64,000 nucleotides of DNA from Thraustochytrium sp. TN22 (lineage: Eukaryota > Sar > Bigyra > Thraustochytrida > Thraustochytriidae): assembly GCA_013306675.1 (NCBI GenBank), contig JABLUY010000051.1:1-64000 (forward strand), written 5' to 3'. The position numbers and the translations under genes are program-made. The notes under the pieces are model-generated. The model was not told the origin of the DNA. It did not search any database and saw nothing but the letters and a program-made list of their open reading frames with translations. Below are positions 3,956-61,067 of this stretch, piece by piece (position 1 is the stretch's first letter; each line of letters opens with the position of its first letter).

Positions 3956-4930
3956 ATGGCGGGCGCAGGCGGCGTGCGGCTGCGCGCGGCGGCGCGAGGC
4001 AACCTACTGGGGCGGCCGGAGCGCGCGTACCGCGCTGGCGCGCCCGCGGCCTCGGGCGGCGGCGCCGCCGCGGTTGAGGCGGGCCTGGAGCGGCTGGCGC
4101 AGCGCGTGGAGGAGCTGCGCAAGGAGCAGGACGTGGACTACCAGGAGGCGGTGCGGCCGTGGCCGCGGCGGCAGGCGGAGGGCCAAGACTTTTTGCTGCT
4201 GCAGCTGCAGAGCACAGTTGTGCGCGGCGGCGACGAGTTCGGCTTTGACGACGACGAAGAGGAGGACGGCGAGGACGGCGAGGCGCACACGAGCTTCCTG
4301 GAGGTGTGCCTGGTGCAGGTGTCGACGGGCGACGTGTACGACGCGACGCCGGAGCAGCTGCCGGAGTGGCGGCACGGCGTGCGCGCCAACGTGCTGGACC
4401 TGGCGTCCGTGGAGAACGCGCTGGACCCCAAGGTGGGCGCGCTGCGCCTGTTTGGCGACACGGTGGCGGAGCTCGTGTTGTCGCTGCGCGTGCCAGTGGA
4501 CAGCGCGAGCGCCTTTGGCGAGACGGCGCTCATCCAAGCGACGAGCGCGGCGCACGCGGAGGTGTGCGCGTGGCTCGTGCGCGAGGCCAAGGCGAACGCG
4601 CGTGCTGCGACGCGCGCCGGCGCAACCGCGCTGCACGTGGCGGCGGACAACGGGTCCAAGGAGCACGAGCCCATTATTCAGCTGCTGGTGACCGAGGGTC
4701 AGGCTGACGTGAACGCCGCCAATGCGTGGGGCAAGACGGCGTTGCACTTGGCGGCTTTTCGCGGGAATCTGAGCGTTGTGCAGCTGCTGCTGGACCTTGG
4801 CGCGAACAAGTTCTGCAAGGACCAGGACGGCAAGACGCCGGGCGACTACGCGCACGAGGACACGTGCTATCGTAGTTCGGACGGGACGACACACTACGAT
4901 GCAGAGGTTGAGTCCATCCTTGCTGCATGA
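3956..4930 (+). CDS. Ankyrin-repeat protein
   Basis: 324 aa from MAGAGGVRL. The open frame extends upstream, but only through a minisatellite, so this ATG is preferred. The N-terminal half has a short coiled-coil-like stretch (GLERLAQRVEELRKEQ) and an acidic patch (DDDEEEDGEDGE). Ankyrin repeats occupy about 180-310: FGETALIQATSAAHAEVCAW, GATALHVAADNGSKEHEPII and GKTALHLAAFRGNLSVVQLL, ending with DGKTPGDYA. It is probably a cytosolic or nuclear binding protein. No catalytic domain is visible and the function is unknown. Confidence 0.82.
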   Translation: MAGAGGVRLRAAARGNLLGRPERAYRAGAPAASGGGAAAVEAGLERLAQRVEELRKEQDVDYQEAVRPWPRRQAEGQDFLLLQLQSTVVRGGDEFGFDDDEEEDGEDGEAHTSFLEVCLVQVSTGDVYDATPEQLPEWRHGVRANVLDLASVENALDPKVGALRLFGDTVAELVLSLRVPVDSASAFGETALIQATSAAHAEVCAWLVREAKANARAATRAGATALHVAADNGSKEHEPIIQLLVTEGQADVNAANAWGKTALHLAAFRGNLSVVQLLLDLGANKFCKDQDGKTPGDYAHEDTCYRSSDGTTHYDAEVESILAA

Positions 4931-6758: not shown

Positions 6759-7865
6759 ATGGTGAAGGAGAACAGCGGTGCCGCGCGGCGCGCGCGGCTG
6801 TGGCGCGGCGCGGCGGCCGTCCTGGCCGCGCTCACGCTGCTCGCCTTCCTCACAGCATGGACCGACCTGCCGGAGGCGCCGCGCAGCGTCCCGCCGCCGG
6901 GCGAGCTCGCACGCGCGACGACGCCGGACGCCGGCGGCCTGCGCGGCGACGCGGCGGGCACCGGTCGTCTCAAGGTGGCCTACGCCATTACCATCACCAA
7001 GGATGGCAAGTACCTGGACGGCGCGGCCGTGCTCAAGCACTCCATCGACAGACTGGGCTCGGTGCACGACGTGGATATGGTGGCCATCGTGCACCCGTCC
7101 GTGAGCAGGACACGCGACGGTCTTCGGCAGCTCGGTATCAAGATCCTCGAGCGTCCCGAGCCCATCAAGTCCAGCGAGATTCAGGGAAAGCACCTGCGCG
7201 AGACCATTGACAAATCCGGCTGCTGCGGCGCGCTCGAGCTGCTCAAGCTGCGCGCCTTTGAGCTCGTCGAGTATGACCGCGTCGTCCTGCTGGACATGGA
7301 CACGCTCATCGTCAAGAGTCTCGACCACCTTTTTGCGCACCCGGAGGAGATGCTCTTCACCTATGACCACGCCATGGACGGCGGCCACAGCGCCGCGCCG
7401 CCCGTGCAGGGTGGCTTCATGGTGCTGCGTCCCAGCGTGCGCACCTATGAGCGGTTGGTGGACATCGTGCGCGAGGGCGACTTTCGCCCTAGCACAGGCT
7501 GGGGCGGCCAGCACATTGGGTGGTGCTGGGGCGGCCAGACCATTCAGGGACTCATCTCCTATTACTACAACCGCGTCGAGCCTGACCAAAAGGTCGTCCT
7601 TGACTACTGCCGCTATAACGCCATGGTGTCCACCGAGGACTGCCGCCCCACGCCTTTTGGCGAGGTCTACTCCATCCACTACACGGTGTGCCAGAAGCCA
7701 TGGGACTGCCACGAGCACAACCTTGGGCTCTGCCGCGAGATGATTGCCGAATGGTGGCGCGTGCGCCAGAGCTACGAGCGCGCCCACGGCCTCCCTGTTT
7801 CCACCGTGCTCACTTGCAAGCACAAGCGCGATTACGTGCCTCTCTTTCAATACGACGATGCTTGA
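6759..7865 (+). CDS. GT8-family glycosyltransferase, type II membrane protein
   Basis: 368 aa from MVKENSG. A basic N-terminus followed by one hydrophobic segment (about 15-35, LWRGAAAVLAALTLLAFLTA) indicates a type II Golgi or ER membrane anchor. The lumenal domain starts with VAYAITITKDGKYLDGAAVL, and the metal-binding DxD is D179-M-D181 in VVLLDMDTLIVKS. Later come VQGGFMVLRPS and GWCWGGQTIQG, typical of glycogenin/galactinol-synthase-like GT8 enzymes that transfer sugar from a UDP-sugar. The membrane anchor argues against cytosolic glycogenin, and the acceptor is unknown. The final 30 residues have no anchor. The 36-bp satellite begins within 100 bp of the stop. Confidence 0.85.
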   Translation: MVKENSGAARRARLWRGAAAVLAALTLLAFLTAWTDLPEAPRSVPPPGELARATTPDAGGLRGDAAGTGRLKVAYAITITKDGKYLDGAAVLKHSIDRLGSVHDVDMVAIVHPSVSRTRDGLRQLGIKILERPEPIKSSEIQGKHLRETIDKSGCCGALELLKLRAFELVEYDRVVLLDMDTLIVKSLDHLFAHPEEMLFTYDHAMDGGHSAAPPVQGGFMVLRPSVRTYERLVDIVREGDFRPSTGWGGQHIGWCWGGQTIQGLISYYYNRVEPDQKVVLDYCRYNAMVSTEDCRPTPFGEVYSIHYTVCQKPWDCHEHNLGLCREMIAEWWRVRQSYERAHGLPVSTVLTCKHKRDYVPLFQYDDA

Positions 7866-56100: not shown

Positions 56101-56108
56101 ATCCCACT
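56101..56108 (+). repeat. Left target-site duplication ATCCCACT
   Basis: Eight bases identical to 61060-61067, abutting the left terminal inverted repeat. Confidence 0.92.
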
Positions 56109-56124
56109 GAGGGGTCGGTTGGTC
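56109..56124 (+). repeat. Left terminal inverted repeat
   Basis: GAGGGGTCGGTTGGTC; perfect inverse of 61044-61059. Confidence 0.95.
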
Positions 56125-56177
56125 GCTCTGGCGGCCCATATTAGCCTGGGAAGCGTTCCTCGCACAGTCCGCCGCGG

Positions 56178-56249
56178 TTCCGCGCTCGCTCGCGTAGCGA
56201 GTGCGCGTTATGAGGCTCTAGCGCTCGCTCGCGTGGCGAGTGAGCGCTA
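56178..56249. repeat. Subterminal palindromes in the left arm
   Basis: Two related hairpins. The second, 56219-56249, has 14-bp arms (tagcgctcgctcgc, one mismatch) around a gtg loop. The first, about 56181-56207, is a weaker version. Possible transposase-binding or end-structure elements. Confidence 0.7.
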
Positions 56250-56371
56250 GCTGAGCTCCCAGCGCGCGCGTTGTGGCGGCTGCGCGTGAGACTTACGCTA
56301 CACGTCGAGGCGGTGAGAGATCCAGATGATCGTCAAGTGATGCCTTTATGTCAAGTTCTTGTCCTTTCCTC

Positions 56372-59300
56372 TTAAGAGTTAAATAGTTTTCTTGCGCCGT
56401 TAGAGGCAGTGGCCGCCGCGTCGTTCATGGCCTCGCGCAAAGCCTTGGACGCCTGGTCCAGACGCTGCGCTGTCGATAGCAGCGCGCGAGTCACCTGGCT
56501 TTGGCGGAAGGCCAGCGCCCAGCCCATGGAGCTTCCCGCCGATTTGACTCGGACGATCTGGGCGAGCGTCTGAGCCGGGTTCTTGCCGAGTGCTGTGAGC
56601 GGAAAGTCCGCTTCAATGTGATGCTCGTTTGTAGCCAAGAAGGCTCGAATGATGGCCCTGCGCGGGTCGCTACCTCGGTTGCTGGAGCCATGGACTCCCA
56701 TCGGCTGGAAGCGGAGGCCGTAAACCTTCGACTGTGCTAGGATGACGACCGTTTTCTCTTCCCGGCGCCCTTCCCTCGTGATGAGCTCGATCGTGGGCTC
56801 ACGTTTGTTGGAGCGAAAGCCGAAAGATACCCAGAGCTTCTTGGACGGCTGTTGCGGCGAGCTTCCCTGCGTTGTCTTGAATGTTTCATGGCTCACCACG
56901 TTTGCGCCTTGTGTCATGTGTGCCAGGATCGCCGTGGTGCAGAGGACCTTGTGATTGGTCTTGCTGGTCGGTGCCTTGAAGCTTGTGACCTGCGCGCGAT
57001 CTGGGTCCCGCATCATGCTGAGCGCCTTGAATCCACCGCTATACGTCTGGTCGCGCGATGTGGAGGACCTTTGGCGTGCTCGTTCATTGACTTGCTCAGC
57101 ACTGGTCGCGCAATACCTTCTGAGCGAGTCGCGCAGCGTTGTTGTGCGTGCGCGATTCTCCATCTCGTACATCGCGCGCAGTTGCTCCGTCCACGCTTCG
57201 CACGTCTTTGGCAGTTTGGTTTCCTTGGCGCACCCGTCCCATGCGTTGTTGTAATACATGGGCCCGCAGAGTTTTTCGAATGGGTTCACACAGTCTGAGG
57301 ACTCGACACGAAGAAACTCGCCCGCCTCGATGCGCTCTCGCTCCATGGTCGAGTACTGCGCCATGATGTCCCGAGACGTTAGAAGGATGTACCCGCGCCT
57401 GGGCTCGGCGAGGACAGCCATGCGAAGCGCGCATGCGCCAAACTGGCTGAGGCCGGTCTTGATGCTGATGTCTTGGCAGGGCTCGCGGATCATGGAGTGC
57501 AGCGTCTCGTTGTCCATGGACTGGAGTGCGCGAGGGACGATGCTGTCTGCGATGCCTTCTTCGTGCGAACGTTGTTCTAGCTCCCGCCAGACGCTGCAGA
57601 AGCTGATGAGGTTGCGGAACGTTAGCGTGGAGATGAAACCGCTGGTGTTGGTCTTGCCGTTGATCGGGACGTGATAGTCGTGATACCAGGCCTCCAGCTT
57701 GACCTGGATATGCTGACCAGCGGCGGCGACCTCTCCGATGCTTCGGTCCTGGCGCTGTGTTCGTTTCACCTCACACGCCCGGAAGTCGTCTTTTTCGAAG
57801 ATGTAGTACATGTCTGTGCCGATCTGCATCAGCTCGGCGAGGACGCCCGTGTGCTCGCTCAGCTCTGCCATCCGCAGGACGCGTTGGACGGCAGGCGAGA
57901 TAAGCTGGAGTCGGAGCTTGCAGTTCATCGGATCAGAGTCGTCGAGCGCAGCCGGTGTGACGAGGATCCTCATGGCGTTGCGAATGGCCTCGTGAGCGGA
58001 AATCCGCAGCTTGGTTCTGCTCTCGTCGAGAAATGCGCTGGCCGGGAGCACCTTGGCGAGGCATTCGATGGACTCCGGCGAGAGCCCGCCAGCGAGCAAT
58101 TCTTGCAATGGGATGTCCGCGCTCCTGCACAGGCCTTTGGCGCTCAGGCATGGTTTGTTGTTGCGCAAACCGATCAGGAGCTCGATGAGCTGGTACGATT
58201 TGCCCTTGTGCCGGAGTTGTTTCCTACGAAGCTGCCCCACGAAGGCCTTGACAATGTGGTCCTTGTCCAGGACCAGCCTCGCAGGGGAGGCCGCAGGAGC
58301 AGCGGGAGGGTTGGCCGCCGCACTGTCCTCCTCACATCCGTCTTGATCTTGCTCGCGTACGTCGTGATCCTCGAGGTCTGAGTCGTCATCGTCCGCTTCC
58401 TCGTCCTCTTCGTCGACCCCGTTGGCCCCGGGCCGAGTGGCTTCGTCAGAGATTGCACTCTGGGCGAAACCCTTCTGGTTGCTTGCCGCGGCGTCCGAGC
58501 AGACCGCCATTGGCTCGAGCCTGTCCCCAGAAGCCTCCCGCACTCGCTCGACGACGTCGTTCACAATTCGGGAGATCGCGCTGGCGTTCTCGCTCCGCAC
58601 AGGGACGGCGGCGACCGGGATCCGAATGCGGTTGTCGGGACTCTTGAGGATGACTGTGACGAGCTTGGCTGCCGCGATGCTTCCGCGGAAGGTGAACAGC
58701 TCTTGCACAATGTCTGCCTCTTCCTTCCCCTCGTCCTTGTGCCTCGCGCGGATGCGCTCCTCTTCGTAGTAGTCGAGGCCGATCAAGTACGGCTTGCCTT
58801 CGAAGGAGGCCACCTCGAGGAGACCGTCCCTCTTTGCCTCGATCCCGTCCATCGTAATCACGTAAAGAAGCGAGCCTTTCGCGAGCATAGCTTTGCAGAA
58901 ACGCTCAATGCATCCGCTCCGGAACGGTGTGTAGGGCGAGCCGAGCCTCCCCACGCTCTTCTGCAGCGTTGTCACGGTCGGGATGGGTAGGTTGAAAAGG
59001 TGGATGTTGATTGGTCCCTTGTTGGCGTTGTTCCCGCGACCCATCTGGCCATAACCGTGAAGTGCATTTAGGATCCGCGAGGAGTGTGGCAGCATGTGAA
59101 TGAACATGAAGAAGGACTTCACCACACGCGAGTGTGGGTTTGTGTCCCAATGATACTGACCCTTGCCTGTCATGTAGGCCTCCATGGCGTGGTACATAGA
59201 GAACGTGAACTTGTAGAGGAAGTGTGACGACGGCACGTTTACACGTTCAATGAGCTCGACGAGCTCGCGCGTGGACTCGCTTCCCTCTGGCTCGCGGGGA

Positions 59301-60094
59301 CGCGCTTGCTCTGCGGTGATCCTCTTGATCTTCCTCTCGAGGTCCTCGTTGGTGCGCCGCATCCGCACGATCACCTCCACGAGCTTGTCAAACGTCACGT
59401 CATCGTCGAGCGTAACGTCCCGCGTCATGAGTGCCGTTCTCAGCCGGCACATGTAGGACCTGTTGCATGCAAACGCCTTCACGCACGCGTCACATCGTTT
59501 CGTCGCGGTTCCGCCCGTGCACGTCGTGCTCCACCCGGTCGTGCCGTTTGAATCGACGCTGTCAGAGAAGCAATAGGCTGCTGGAAAGCCTTGGCAGCGC
59601 GCTGCGGGCGGCGCAGGCGCGCCTCCGGTCTCGGGACCTGCGTTCCGCGAGGACCTAACCACCGGCTGGTCATCGGCGGGAGACGCACTCGCGTCTGTTC
59701 TCTGACGCTTGCAGCTGTACTCCTGAACAAGAGCCTTCATGCCGGACAGGAGGTCATTGAGCACCATCATTTGCTCGGGCGTGGGTGCATTGGGGCCACA
59801 GCGAAGGGCATCAACGTGCCCGCGGAGCGTACCTGGTTCGCTCCAGTTGCCTGCTTGCACGATGCAGAACCAGTGGCGCTTCTTCTTCCTCTCCTTGTCG
59901 TATAGCAGGCAGTACTGCCCACCATCGAGCTCGAGCACACATATGTTGTTTGCCTTGGTTGCGCGCCATCTCGACCAACGAGCGAAGCGAGATGGGATGT
60001 GGTTGGGTTCGGGCGACCACCAGAGACCCCACAAGCCAGGAGCTGAGGCGACGAGCTCCGACAGGCGCTCAACAAACCTTGTCTGATTCTCCAT
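56372..60094 (-). CDS. Transposase of the P-element-like transposon
   Basis: 1240 aa. The start is the ATG at 60094, which has a textbook context (gccaccATGG); the frame is open 25 codons further. Residues 1-140 are an unknown N-terminal domain (GLWGLWWSPEPNHI, YCLLYDKERKKKRHWFCIV). A Cys-rich cluster follows (about 165-230), then a helical stretch (EVIVRMRRTNEDLERKIKRI). RNase-H-like acidic motifs: D416 in LLYVITMDGIEAKRDG, D534 in MAVCSDAAASNQKG, and D610 with H613 and K616 in LVLDKDHIVKAF, which resembles the D-x-x-H-x-x-K motif of P/THAP9 transposases; the 534 to 610 spacing of 76 equals that between D303 and D379 in the Drosophila protein. An acidic run separates them. The final catalytic acid is unassigned; LLTSRDIMAQYSTMERE is a candidate site. 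It is uninterrupted, so possibly active. Confidence 0.8.
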   Translation of the reverse strand: MENQTRFVERLSELVASAPGLWGLWWSPEPNHIPSRFARWSRWRATKANNICVLELDGGQYCLLYDKERKKKRHWFCIVQAGNWSEPGTLRGHVDALRCGPNAPTPEQMMVLNDLLSGMKALVQEYSCKRQRTDASASPADDQPVVRSSRNAGPETGGAPAPPAARCQGFPAAYCFSDSVDSNGTTGWSTTCTGGTATKRCDACVKAFACNRSYMCRLRTALMTRDVTLDDDVTFDKLVEVIVRMRRTNEDLERKIKRITAEQARPREPEGSESTRELVELIERVNVPSSHFLYKFTFSMYHAMEAYMTGKGQYHWDTNPHSRVVKSFFMFIHMLPHSSRILNALHGYGQMGRGNNANKGPINIHLFNLPIPTVTTLQKSVGRLGSPYTPFRSGCIERFCKAMLAKGSLLYVITMDGIEAKRDGLLEVASFEGKPYLIGLDYYEEERIRARHKDEGKEEADIVQELFTFRGSIAAAKLVTVILKSPDNRIRIPVAAVPVRSENASAISRIVNDVVERVREASGDRLEPMAVCSDAAASNQKGFAQSAISDEATRPGANGVDEEDEEADDDDSDLEDHDVREQDQDGCEEDSAAANPPAAPAASPARLVLDKDHIVKAFVGQLRRKQLRHKGKSYQLIELLIGLRNNKPCLSAKGLCRSADIPLQELLAGGLSPESIECLAKVLPASAFLDESRTKLRISAHEAIRNAMRILVTPAALDDSDPMNCKLRLQLISPAVQRVLRMAELSEHTGVLAELMQIGTDMYYIFEKDDFRACEVKRTQRQDRSIGEVAAAGQHIQVKLEAWYHDYHVPINGKTNTSGFISTLTFRNLISFCSVWRELEQRSHEEGIADSIVPRALQSMDNETLHSMIREPCQDISIKTGLSQFGACALRMAVLAEPRRGYILLTSRDIMAQYSTMERERIEAGEFLRVESSDCVNPFEKLCGPMYYNNAWDGCAKETKLPKTCEAWTEQLRAMYEMENRARTTTLRDSLRRYCATSAEQVNERARQRSSTSRDQTYSGGFKALSMMRDPDRAQVTSFKAPTSKTNHKVLCTTAILAHMTQGANVVSHETFKTTQGSSPQQPSKKLWVSFGFRSNKREPTIELITREGRREEKTVVILAQSKVYGLRFQPMGVHGSSNRGSDPRRAIIRAFLATNEHHIEADFPLTALGKNPAQTLAQIVRVKSAGSSMGWALAFRQSQVTRALLSTAQRLDQASKALREAMNDAAATASNGARKLFNS

Positions 60095-60123
60095 GGTGGC
60101 CAGACCCTGACCCTTGCGCGGCG

Positions 60124-60230
60124 CGCAGCCGCGCCAAGGCGCAAGCGCGCCAAGGCGCAAGCGCGCCAAGGCGCCACCTCAGCCCGCGTCCCGCCCGCGG
60201 ATCCGCGCCCGCGGATCCGCGGGATGGATG
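60124..60230. repeat. Short direct and inverted repeats upstream of the transposase
   Basis: gcgccaaggcgcaa occurs about three times at 60131-60172, then cccgcggatccgcg twice at 60194-60222, each a palindrome around GGATCC. They lie in the probable promoter or leader of the transposase gene. Confidence 0.75.
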
Positions 60231-60479
60231 ATGCCTCACAACGATGGGAGCAGCCCGAGGCCGGGGCTTCGGCACGACCGCGCGCAGCGGATGCCTCGTA
60301 CGCGCACGCGCGCGTCGTACGCGCGCGCGTGCAATCCCTTTCGCTTTCTCAGCTCTCGCTCGCAGACCGCTCGCACGGCCAGTATACGCTGGGACAGGGC
60401 TTGCACGAGCAAGCTGGCAGAACCCGGCCCCGAGTCAACGCCTCATGCGACGAAGAAGGTGTGTACATGTCACACAAGA

Positions 60480-60960
60480 CAGCCTAACTTGGTAGTGCGT
60501 ACCCCCCATTTCTCTAACTACGGATTTGTACAGTGGCAAATACAACAAACTTCTCATGCGAAATATTCAATCAATTCATCTCAGACACAATCAAAATTGG
60601 CACAAAAGAAAGCTATGTAACCTTTATGTTCAATGGCCGAAGAAAATCACAATTCGATTGATTATTTCATGAGAAAACTTCAAGAGAGTTCGAGTTCTTT
60701 GAAGGACCTATAGATACCCGAGCTCGAATTTCAAGTGCACTACGAGGGCATGCGGACACCTCTCACCGTCTTGAGGCTCCTCTGTCGAAGGGAACACCCA
60801 GAACTGGAATGCTTGATCTACAGATGGTCACGAAGGTGTCATCTTCAATAATAGATAACAGCACCAAAAAAGAACCAACAACTATCAAAATTTCAGGAAG
60901 CGGAGCATAAAGCAATTGAACTATGTCTGGCTAAAGCATTGCTCTCGAGCGCATGTGGAT
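60480..60960. other. A/T-rich right arm of the transposon
   Basis: About 480 bp with visibly more A and T than any host segment of similar length here. No ORF of note. It is part of the element because it lies inside the inverted repeats. Confidence 0.7.
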
Positions 60961-60984
60961 CACAAGCGACATGGTCATGAAAAT

Positions 60985-61011
60985 AGACCGGGTTCGCCGT
61001 CGAACCGGTCT
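60985..61011. repeat. Subterminal palindrome in the right arm
   Basis: agaccgggttcg and cgaaccggtct pair across a short ccgt loop with one bulge, about 48 bp from the right end. Confidence 0.7.
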
Positions 61012-61043
61012 AATTTGCCCGCGTTGCGACGCCCTTTTCTAAG

Positions 61044-61059
61044 GACCAACCGACCCCTC
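61044..61059 (-). repeat. Right terminal inverted repeat
   Basis: GACCAACCGACCCCTC on the plus strand; perfect inverse of 56109-56124. Confidence 0.95.
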
Positions 61060-61067
61060 ATCCCACT
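61060..61067 (+). repeat. Right target-site duplication ATCCCACT
   Basis: Identical to 56101-56108, abutting the right inverted repeat. Confidence 0.92.

Follow-up and report, generated by a model that had tools for sequence, protein, structure and literature searches.

A recently mobile transposon of Thraustochytrium sp. TN22 and its transposase, a probable member of a deeply diverged P-superfamily lineage

The window analysed here is a stretch of 64,000 nucleotides from the thraustochytrid Thraustochytrium sp. TN22 (assembly GCA_013306675.1, contig JABLUY010000051.1, positions 1 to 64,000), and its positions 56109-61059 are occupied by a DNA transposon of 4951 bp. The element is bounded by terminal inverted repeats (TIRs) of 16 bp and target-site duplications (TSDs) of 8 bp, and carries an uninterrupted open reading frame (ORF) of 1240 codons with a single terminal stop and the start context GCCACCATGG (Table 1); an earlier note, made from the letters of this DNA, had proposed all of these features, and each was confirmed. 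A repeat finder reports the TIR as 17 bp, the last T of the TSD pairing by chance. The ends are fixed because all five full-length copies found in the host genome run 4951 bp from G to C, which also upholds the proposed size of the unit. The GC content of the element is 59%, as against 66% for the window, and falls to 44% in the final 0.5 kb of the right end. An imperfect inverted pair of 15 nt (56305-56319 and 60760-60774, 87% complementary) is a possible counterpart of the subterminal inverted repeats of P elements; besides the TIR, both ends have only one 9-mer in common within 320 bp, and chance could yield such a 9-mer.

A DNA search of the host assembly (37.9 Mb, 453 contigs) gave 18 matches to the element. 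Full-length copies with flanks that are all different lie on contigs C400 (the window), C52, C431, C321 and C48; the latter four are identical, the window copy differs from them by a single base at element position 4274, which lies outside the gene, and an identical protein of 1240 residues is encoded by all five. Together with a related element on C395 and a 934-bp deletion derivative with the same ends on C440, this makes seven two-ended copies that were examined, and perfect 8-bp TSDs (ATCCCACT, CGGCCAGT, AACGAGTC, ACTCGGGA and CCGTGACG) flank five of them, namely C400, C431, C321, C48 and C395. Several recent insertions are thereby shown, the five near-identical copies bearing out the description of the element as apparently young, and the element looks autonomous, apparently intact and recently mobile. 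Three contigs end inside element termini (C52:1-55, C229:37085-37138 and C325:20361-20416), which points to unassembled copies and probably to a total of more than five. A search confined to the left flank of the window copy returned 38 matches, none of them an empty allele; only the match in the window is full length, the others being short pieces of the first ~110 bp.

The element on C395 reveals a modular organization. It measures 4882 bp, is flanked by CCGTGACG and has an open frame for a protein that is 93% identical overall to the window transposase. At the DNA level, identity to the window element is 96-100% over the first 3.6 kb and then falls off sharply to 37-57% per 200 bp; it rises again only at the right end, where the final ~90 bp with the TIR stay similar between the two types (89% in C395). 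The two proteins show 40-50% identity over residues 1-130 and 92-100% over residues 131-1240. Type A (the window) and type B (C395) have the left part and both TIRs in common; the N-terminal module and the right flank set them apart, a pattern that reads as the exchange of a right-end module encoding the N-terminal domain. The right module of type B also occurs on C33, C440 and C118; for the window type, the only occurrence found besides the five full copies is a 77% fragment at C430. Because the two types differ in both the module and the right flank, the N-terminal module may recognize right-end sequences.

A second, distant family is represented on contig C69 by a unit of 5020 bp, bounded by 16-bp inverted repeats of its own (GAGGGGGGAGTAACTG). 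Its transposase, the last part of which lies in a different frame, is 33% identical to that of the window over residues 24-548 and 43% over residues 606-892. That two distant families have a common length, order and terminal GAGGGG supports the element ends as real.

Evidence for a relationship with the P superfamily comes from profile comparison, domain searches and residue alignment. A query profile of three family members (two after the redundancy filter of HHalign) was compared with a profile of those P proteins that reach at least 400 residues (100 of the 110 found), giving a score of 56.4 (probability 85%, E 6e-6 for a single comparison); the reversed control reached 18.6, the best of 100 global shuffles 29.9 and the best of 100 local shuffles 26.5, and the C69 protein alone scored 43.2 against P. 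When 24736 Pfam families were scanned, the top match of the C69 protein was PF21787 (TNP-like RNase H N-terminal; E 0.036), and the pieces holding the first two aspartates matched this family only (E 0.03 for the window, 0.0024 for C69); the N-terminal piece of the C69 protein matched no Pfam family. In a MAFFT alignment of residues 360-905 with 26 P proteins, D416, D534, D610, H613, K616, S733, E863 and G394 are invariant, and the D610-K-D-H613 motif, of the form [C/D](2)H, is common to all 27 sequences, in agreement with permissive HHalign. The latter (mact 0.05) pairs D610 with D339, H613 with H342, K616 with K345, S733 with S409 and E863 with E531, whether the window or the C69 protein leads the profile, and MAFFT yields the same pairs. 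A scripted repeat of the MAFFT test recovered seven of the seven key residues for the window protein and likewise for that of C69, the maximum among 60 local shuffles being six. The fold match to P also supports a P core, less independently than the sequence tests.

These results sustain the P-related core proposed in the earlier note, whose D416, D534 and D610-K-D-H613-I-V-K616 are present as described. The catalytic triad of P consists of D230, D303 and E531 (PMC8230255, accessible part), and a correspondence of D416, D534 and E863 with it is supported by the alignments, as is the view of the element as a divergent variant of the P superfamily, a superfamily call that rests on remote evidence. 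Like the Drosophila P element (PDB 6p5a/6pe2; PF21787/PF21788/PF21789), the window element has the aligned DDE residues, the D(2)H-x-x-K motif, a mostly helical insertion with a serine resembling S409, 8-bp TSDs and internally deleted copies, and the PLPSRTTL-like motif before the first aspartate of P has a counterpart in NLPIPTVTTL. It differs in the length of the transposase (1240 residues as against 751) and of the TIR (16 as against 31 bp), in having one uninterrupted ORF and in the absence of the N-terminal THAP C2CH finger known from animal members of the superfamily. The zebrafish P-like transposon Pdre2 and THAP9 were compared by description rather than by sequence: an 8-bp TSD and a short TIR (13 bp in zebrafish; PMC7776569, accessible part) and the order of the DDE residues (PMC8230255, accessible part) are alike, whereas the THAP finger with which they are described is missing from the window protein.

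A further difference from P concerns the guanosine triphosphate (GTP) site. According to the accessible part of PMC7776569, P transposase is unique within the transposase/integrase superfamily in its use of GTP as a cofactor, which is contacted by D528, K385, K400, V401, S409, F443, D444 and N447; mutation of D444 abolished the activity of fly P (PMC8230255, accessible part). Of these eight contacts, S409 alone is clearly retained: it corresponds to S733 wherever an alignment extends that far. In one of four alignments (MAFFT with C69), D444 coincides with the equivalent of D761; in the other three (HHalign in either order, and MAFFT with the protein of the window), it falls on a tyrosine or histidine three residues further (Y764 or its equivalent), the HHalign partner of D761 being D441 and not D444. 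K400, V401, F443, N447 and D528 appear altered, and the placement of K385 is inconsistent.

Taken together, we consider it probable that the element is an autonomous cut-and-paste DNA transposon and that its transposase comes from a P-superfamily lineage that has diverged deeply. The N-terminal module and the Cys cluster would bind the element ends and the transposase would pair the two ends; the putative DDE site (D416, D534 and E863), set in an RNase H fold that is interrupted by the helical insertion, would cut them, as its residues suggest, and joining to the target across 8 bp would give rise to the 8-bp duplications. P-type transposition is further characterized by cuts with a 17-nt stagger and by a requirement for GTP.

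However, a number of observations weigh against this assignment. The window protein alone scored 29.5 in HHalign, no better than the best shuffle, and the default HHalign alignment spans only the pairs D416-D230 and D534-D303, the others needing the permissive extension; a less strict count, that of P-invariant columns, gave 13 for the real sequence and as many for one of 60 shuffles. The PF21787 matches (18.6, 15.1 and 14.8 bits) are below the curated cut-off of 24.6, PF21788 and PF21789 are without support, and the pieces with the insertion and E863 gave no family for the window and unrelated weak ones for C69 (FliJ, E 0.043; COG5_N; Transketolase_C). The full window protein matched no family in Pfam or in NCBIfam, and that of C395 had only a chance-level Pfam match to TAL_effector (E 0.15). 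The fold match is partly circular, as the alignment behind the model contained P sequences, and pLDDT is below 50 in 206 of its 546 residues. Two of the seven two-ended copies, on C52 and C440, have duplications of 7 bp (AGGTGCG and GGCCGCG), and the C69 element lacks a clean 8-bp TSD, its flanks (1880-1960 and 6900-6990) carrying AACAGGTCAAAG, a repeat of 12 bp, with an additional TA on the left side. Most of the published GTP contacts are not kept, and the THAP finger is absent: the earlier note had found no usual THAP zinc finger, and indeed the protein has neither a PF05485 match nor the pattern C-x2-4-C-x35-53-C-x2-H, which is also missing from the C395, C69 and C418 proteins and present in P0001. 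The pattern occurs in the first 120 residues of only 23 of the 110 proteins of the P set, and is therefore not definitive for every listed member.

The same divergence lends some weight to a separate superfamily, sister to P, that would combine a P-like core with an N terminus, a Cys cluster and a cofactor use of its own. The transposase is 13-18% identical to each P protein of the 26 in the alignment, THAP is absent and most GTP contacts read as changed, and no homologue was found among ~5.8 billion proteins with either a single sequence or an alignment as query (7989 and 7994 candidates scored, respectively; relatives that share few words could escape), an absence that, at the available sensitivity, also fits the distinct P-related family put forward in the earlier note. 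The catalytic residues, the order of motifs, the position of the insertion and the length of the TSD all fit P, however, and rank is a matter of convention for which a tree with more protist members is needed. We hold this option to be the less probable one by far, while noting that it overlaps with membership in a deeply diverged P lineage and differs from it in rank only, such that the two are not mutually exclusive. Slightly more doubtful still is the fuller scenario of a P-related lineage ranking beside P that has kept the catalytic core and the insertion, has lost the THAP finger and most GTP contacts, would transpose without GTP or with another cofactor, and has had its end-recognition module changed by recombination.

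It is unlikely that the element belongs to another superfamily with 8-bp duplications, such as hAT or KDZ/Zisupton, with the D(2)H and DDE likeness merely being common to RNase H transposases. Hermes, a hAT transposase, and RAG1 likewise combine an RNase H fold with an insertion domain; in what was run, no other superfamily matched better than P, and Pfam reported no KDZ family at E up to 10, which is an absence of match only. Searches elsewhere returned a single chance-level match among PDB sequences for the protein (E 2.9) and for the alignment (E 1.2), no useful match to two short peptide patterns in each of the viral and genome contig collections, and no fold in BFVD with an E value of 0.001 or lower; a whole-genome search with PF21787 gave nothing here and nothing in 14 controls, and is thus uninformative. 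One long stop-free gene could also suggest a transposon look-alike, either a host gene or a solitary relic, but five copies with different flanks, duplications at each and a deletion derivative with the same ends already refute this. A deeply diverged P lineage remains the assignment we favor. The open PMC literature (as far as accessible, and with Repbase outside its scope) yielded no report of a P-superfamily element in thraustochytrids or other protists.

Table 1. Features of the transposon and its transposase, in window coordinates.
Feature	Positions	Strand	Basis or remark
Left TSD, ATCCCACT	56101..56108		Identical to 61060-61067
Left 16-bp TIR, GAGGGGTCGGTTGGTC	56109..56124	+	Repeat finder, copy comparison
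Transposase gene, 1240 codons and stop, no intron needed	56372..60094	-	Same protein in 5/5 full copies
E863 codon, aligned with catalytic E531	57506..57508	-	MAFFT, permissive HHalign; absent from the earlier note
Residues 617-850, mostly helical, at the position of the GTP-binding insertion of P; holds S733, aligned with GTP contact S409	57545..58246	-	Alignments; without Pfam support
D610-K-D-H613-I-V-K616, aligned with D339-T-P-H-L-I-K (D(2)H motif of the P superfamily)	58247..58267	-	MAFFT, permissive HHalign
Residues 552-605, acidic low-complexity linker, lacking in the C69 relative	58280..58441	-	Comparison with C69
D534 codon, aligned with catalytic D303	58493..58495	-	HHalign default and permissive, MAFFT
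D416 codon, aligned with catalytic D230 of P transposase	58847..58849	-	HHalign default and permissive, MAFFT
Cys cluster, residues 167-216 (C167, C192, C201 and C204 common to three aligned family members)	59447..59596	-	Not the THAP C2CH pattern
N-terminal module, residues 1-130, type A versus type B	59705..60094	-	40-50% amino acid identity versus 92-100% downstream
Right module (N-terminal domain, 5' region, AT-richer right flank), differing between types A and B	59708..60970		Identity falls from 96-100% to 37-57% per 200 bp
Right 16-bp TIR, GAGGGGTCGGTTGGTC in inverted orientation	61044..61059	-	Repeat finder, copy comparison
Right TSD, ATCCCACT	61060..61067		Identical to left TSD

Residues 889-1240 of the transposase modelled poorly on their own (pLDDT 38.6). 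C64 (L027, 1285-2418, minus strand) carries a truncated transposase related to that of C69, with 86% identity over 297 residues and a seemingly unrelated in-frame continuation, and near the C69 element there is a tandem repeat of ~111 bp (L019, 1-1620) that is open in all three forward frames. A long open frame on C418 (L042, 1-2931, plus strand) contains Gln- and Ser-rich tracts and a region, ending in NEIHLPIPPLPTL, that is 25-30% identical to the Cys cluster of the transposase and the helical part that follows (back-search against the transposases, E 3.6e-5 to 0.02); no catalytic motif was seen by eye in the 976 residues read, and the frame is possibly a domesticated transposase fragment. 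A candidate on C227 (E 0.08) was rejected as a relative, as by eye it resembles a histidine-biosynthesis gene.

Four of nine neighbouring ORFs scanned contain Pfam domains (dynein heavy chain C-terminus, CLC chloride channel with a CBS domain, protein kinase and PX domain). The window is eukaryotic, and the attribution to a GC-rich protist in the earlier note stands to the extent of its GC content and the eukaryotic proteins encoded. Two of the seven insertion sites are followed within 200 bp by the start of a GC3-rich ORF of 300 or more residues, as compared with 6% of window positions; with a minimum of 120 residues, four of the seven are (24-181 bp upstream of the start; L001, L005, L006 and L020), as compared with 16%. 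Seven sites are too few for an insertion preference near start codons to be claimed. The C431 insertion is 144 bp from an ORF start, yet lies outside these four.

The main point of interest is the apparently changed GTP site in a family that looks intact and recently mobile. With a distant, recently mobile and apparently intact relative that has no THAP finger and in which most GTP contacts read as altered, it becomes testable whether the use of GTP is ancestral to the superfamily or was added on the animal side. Being young, autonomous and resident in a GC-rich protist, the transposon could moreover serve as a tool for gene delivery there.
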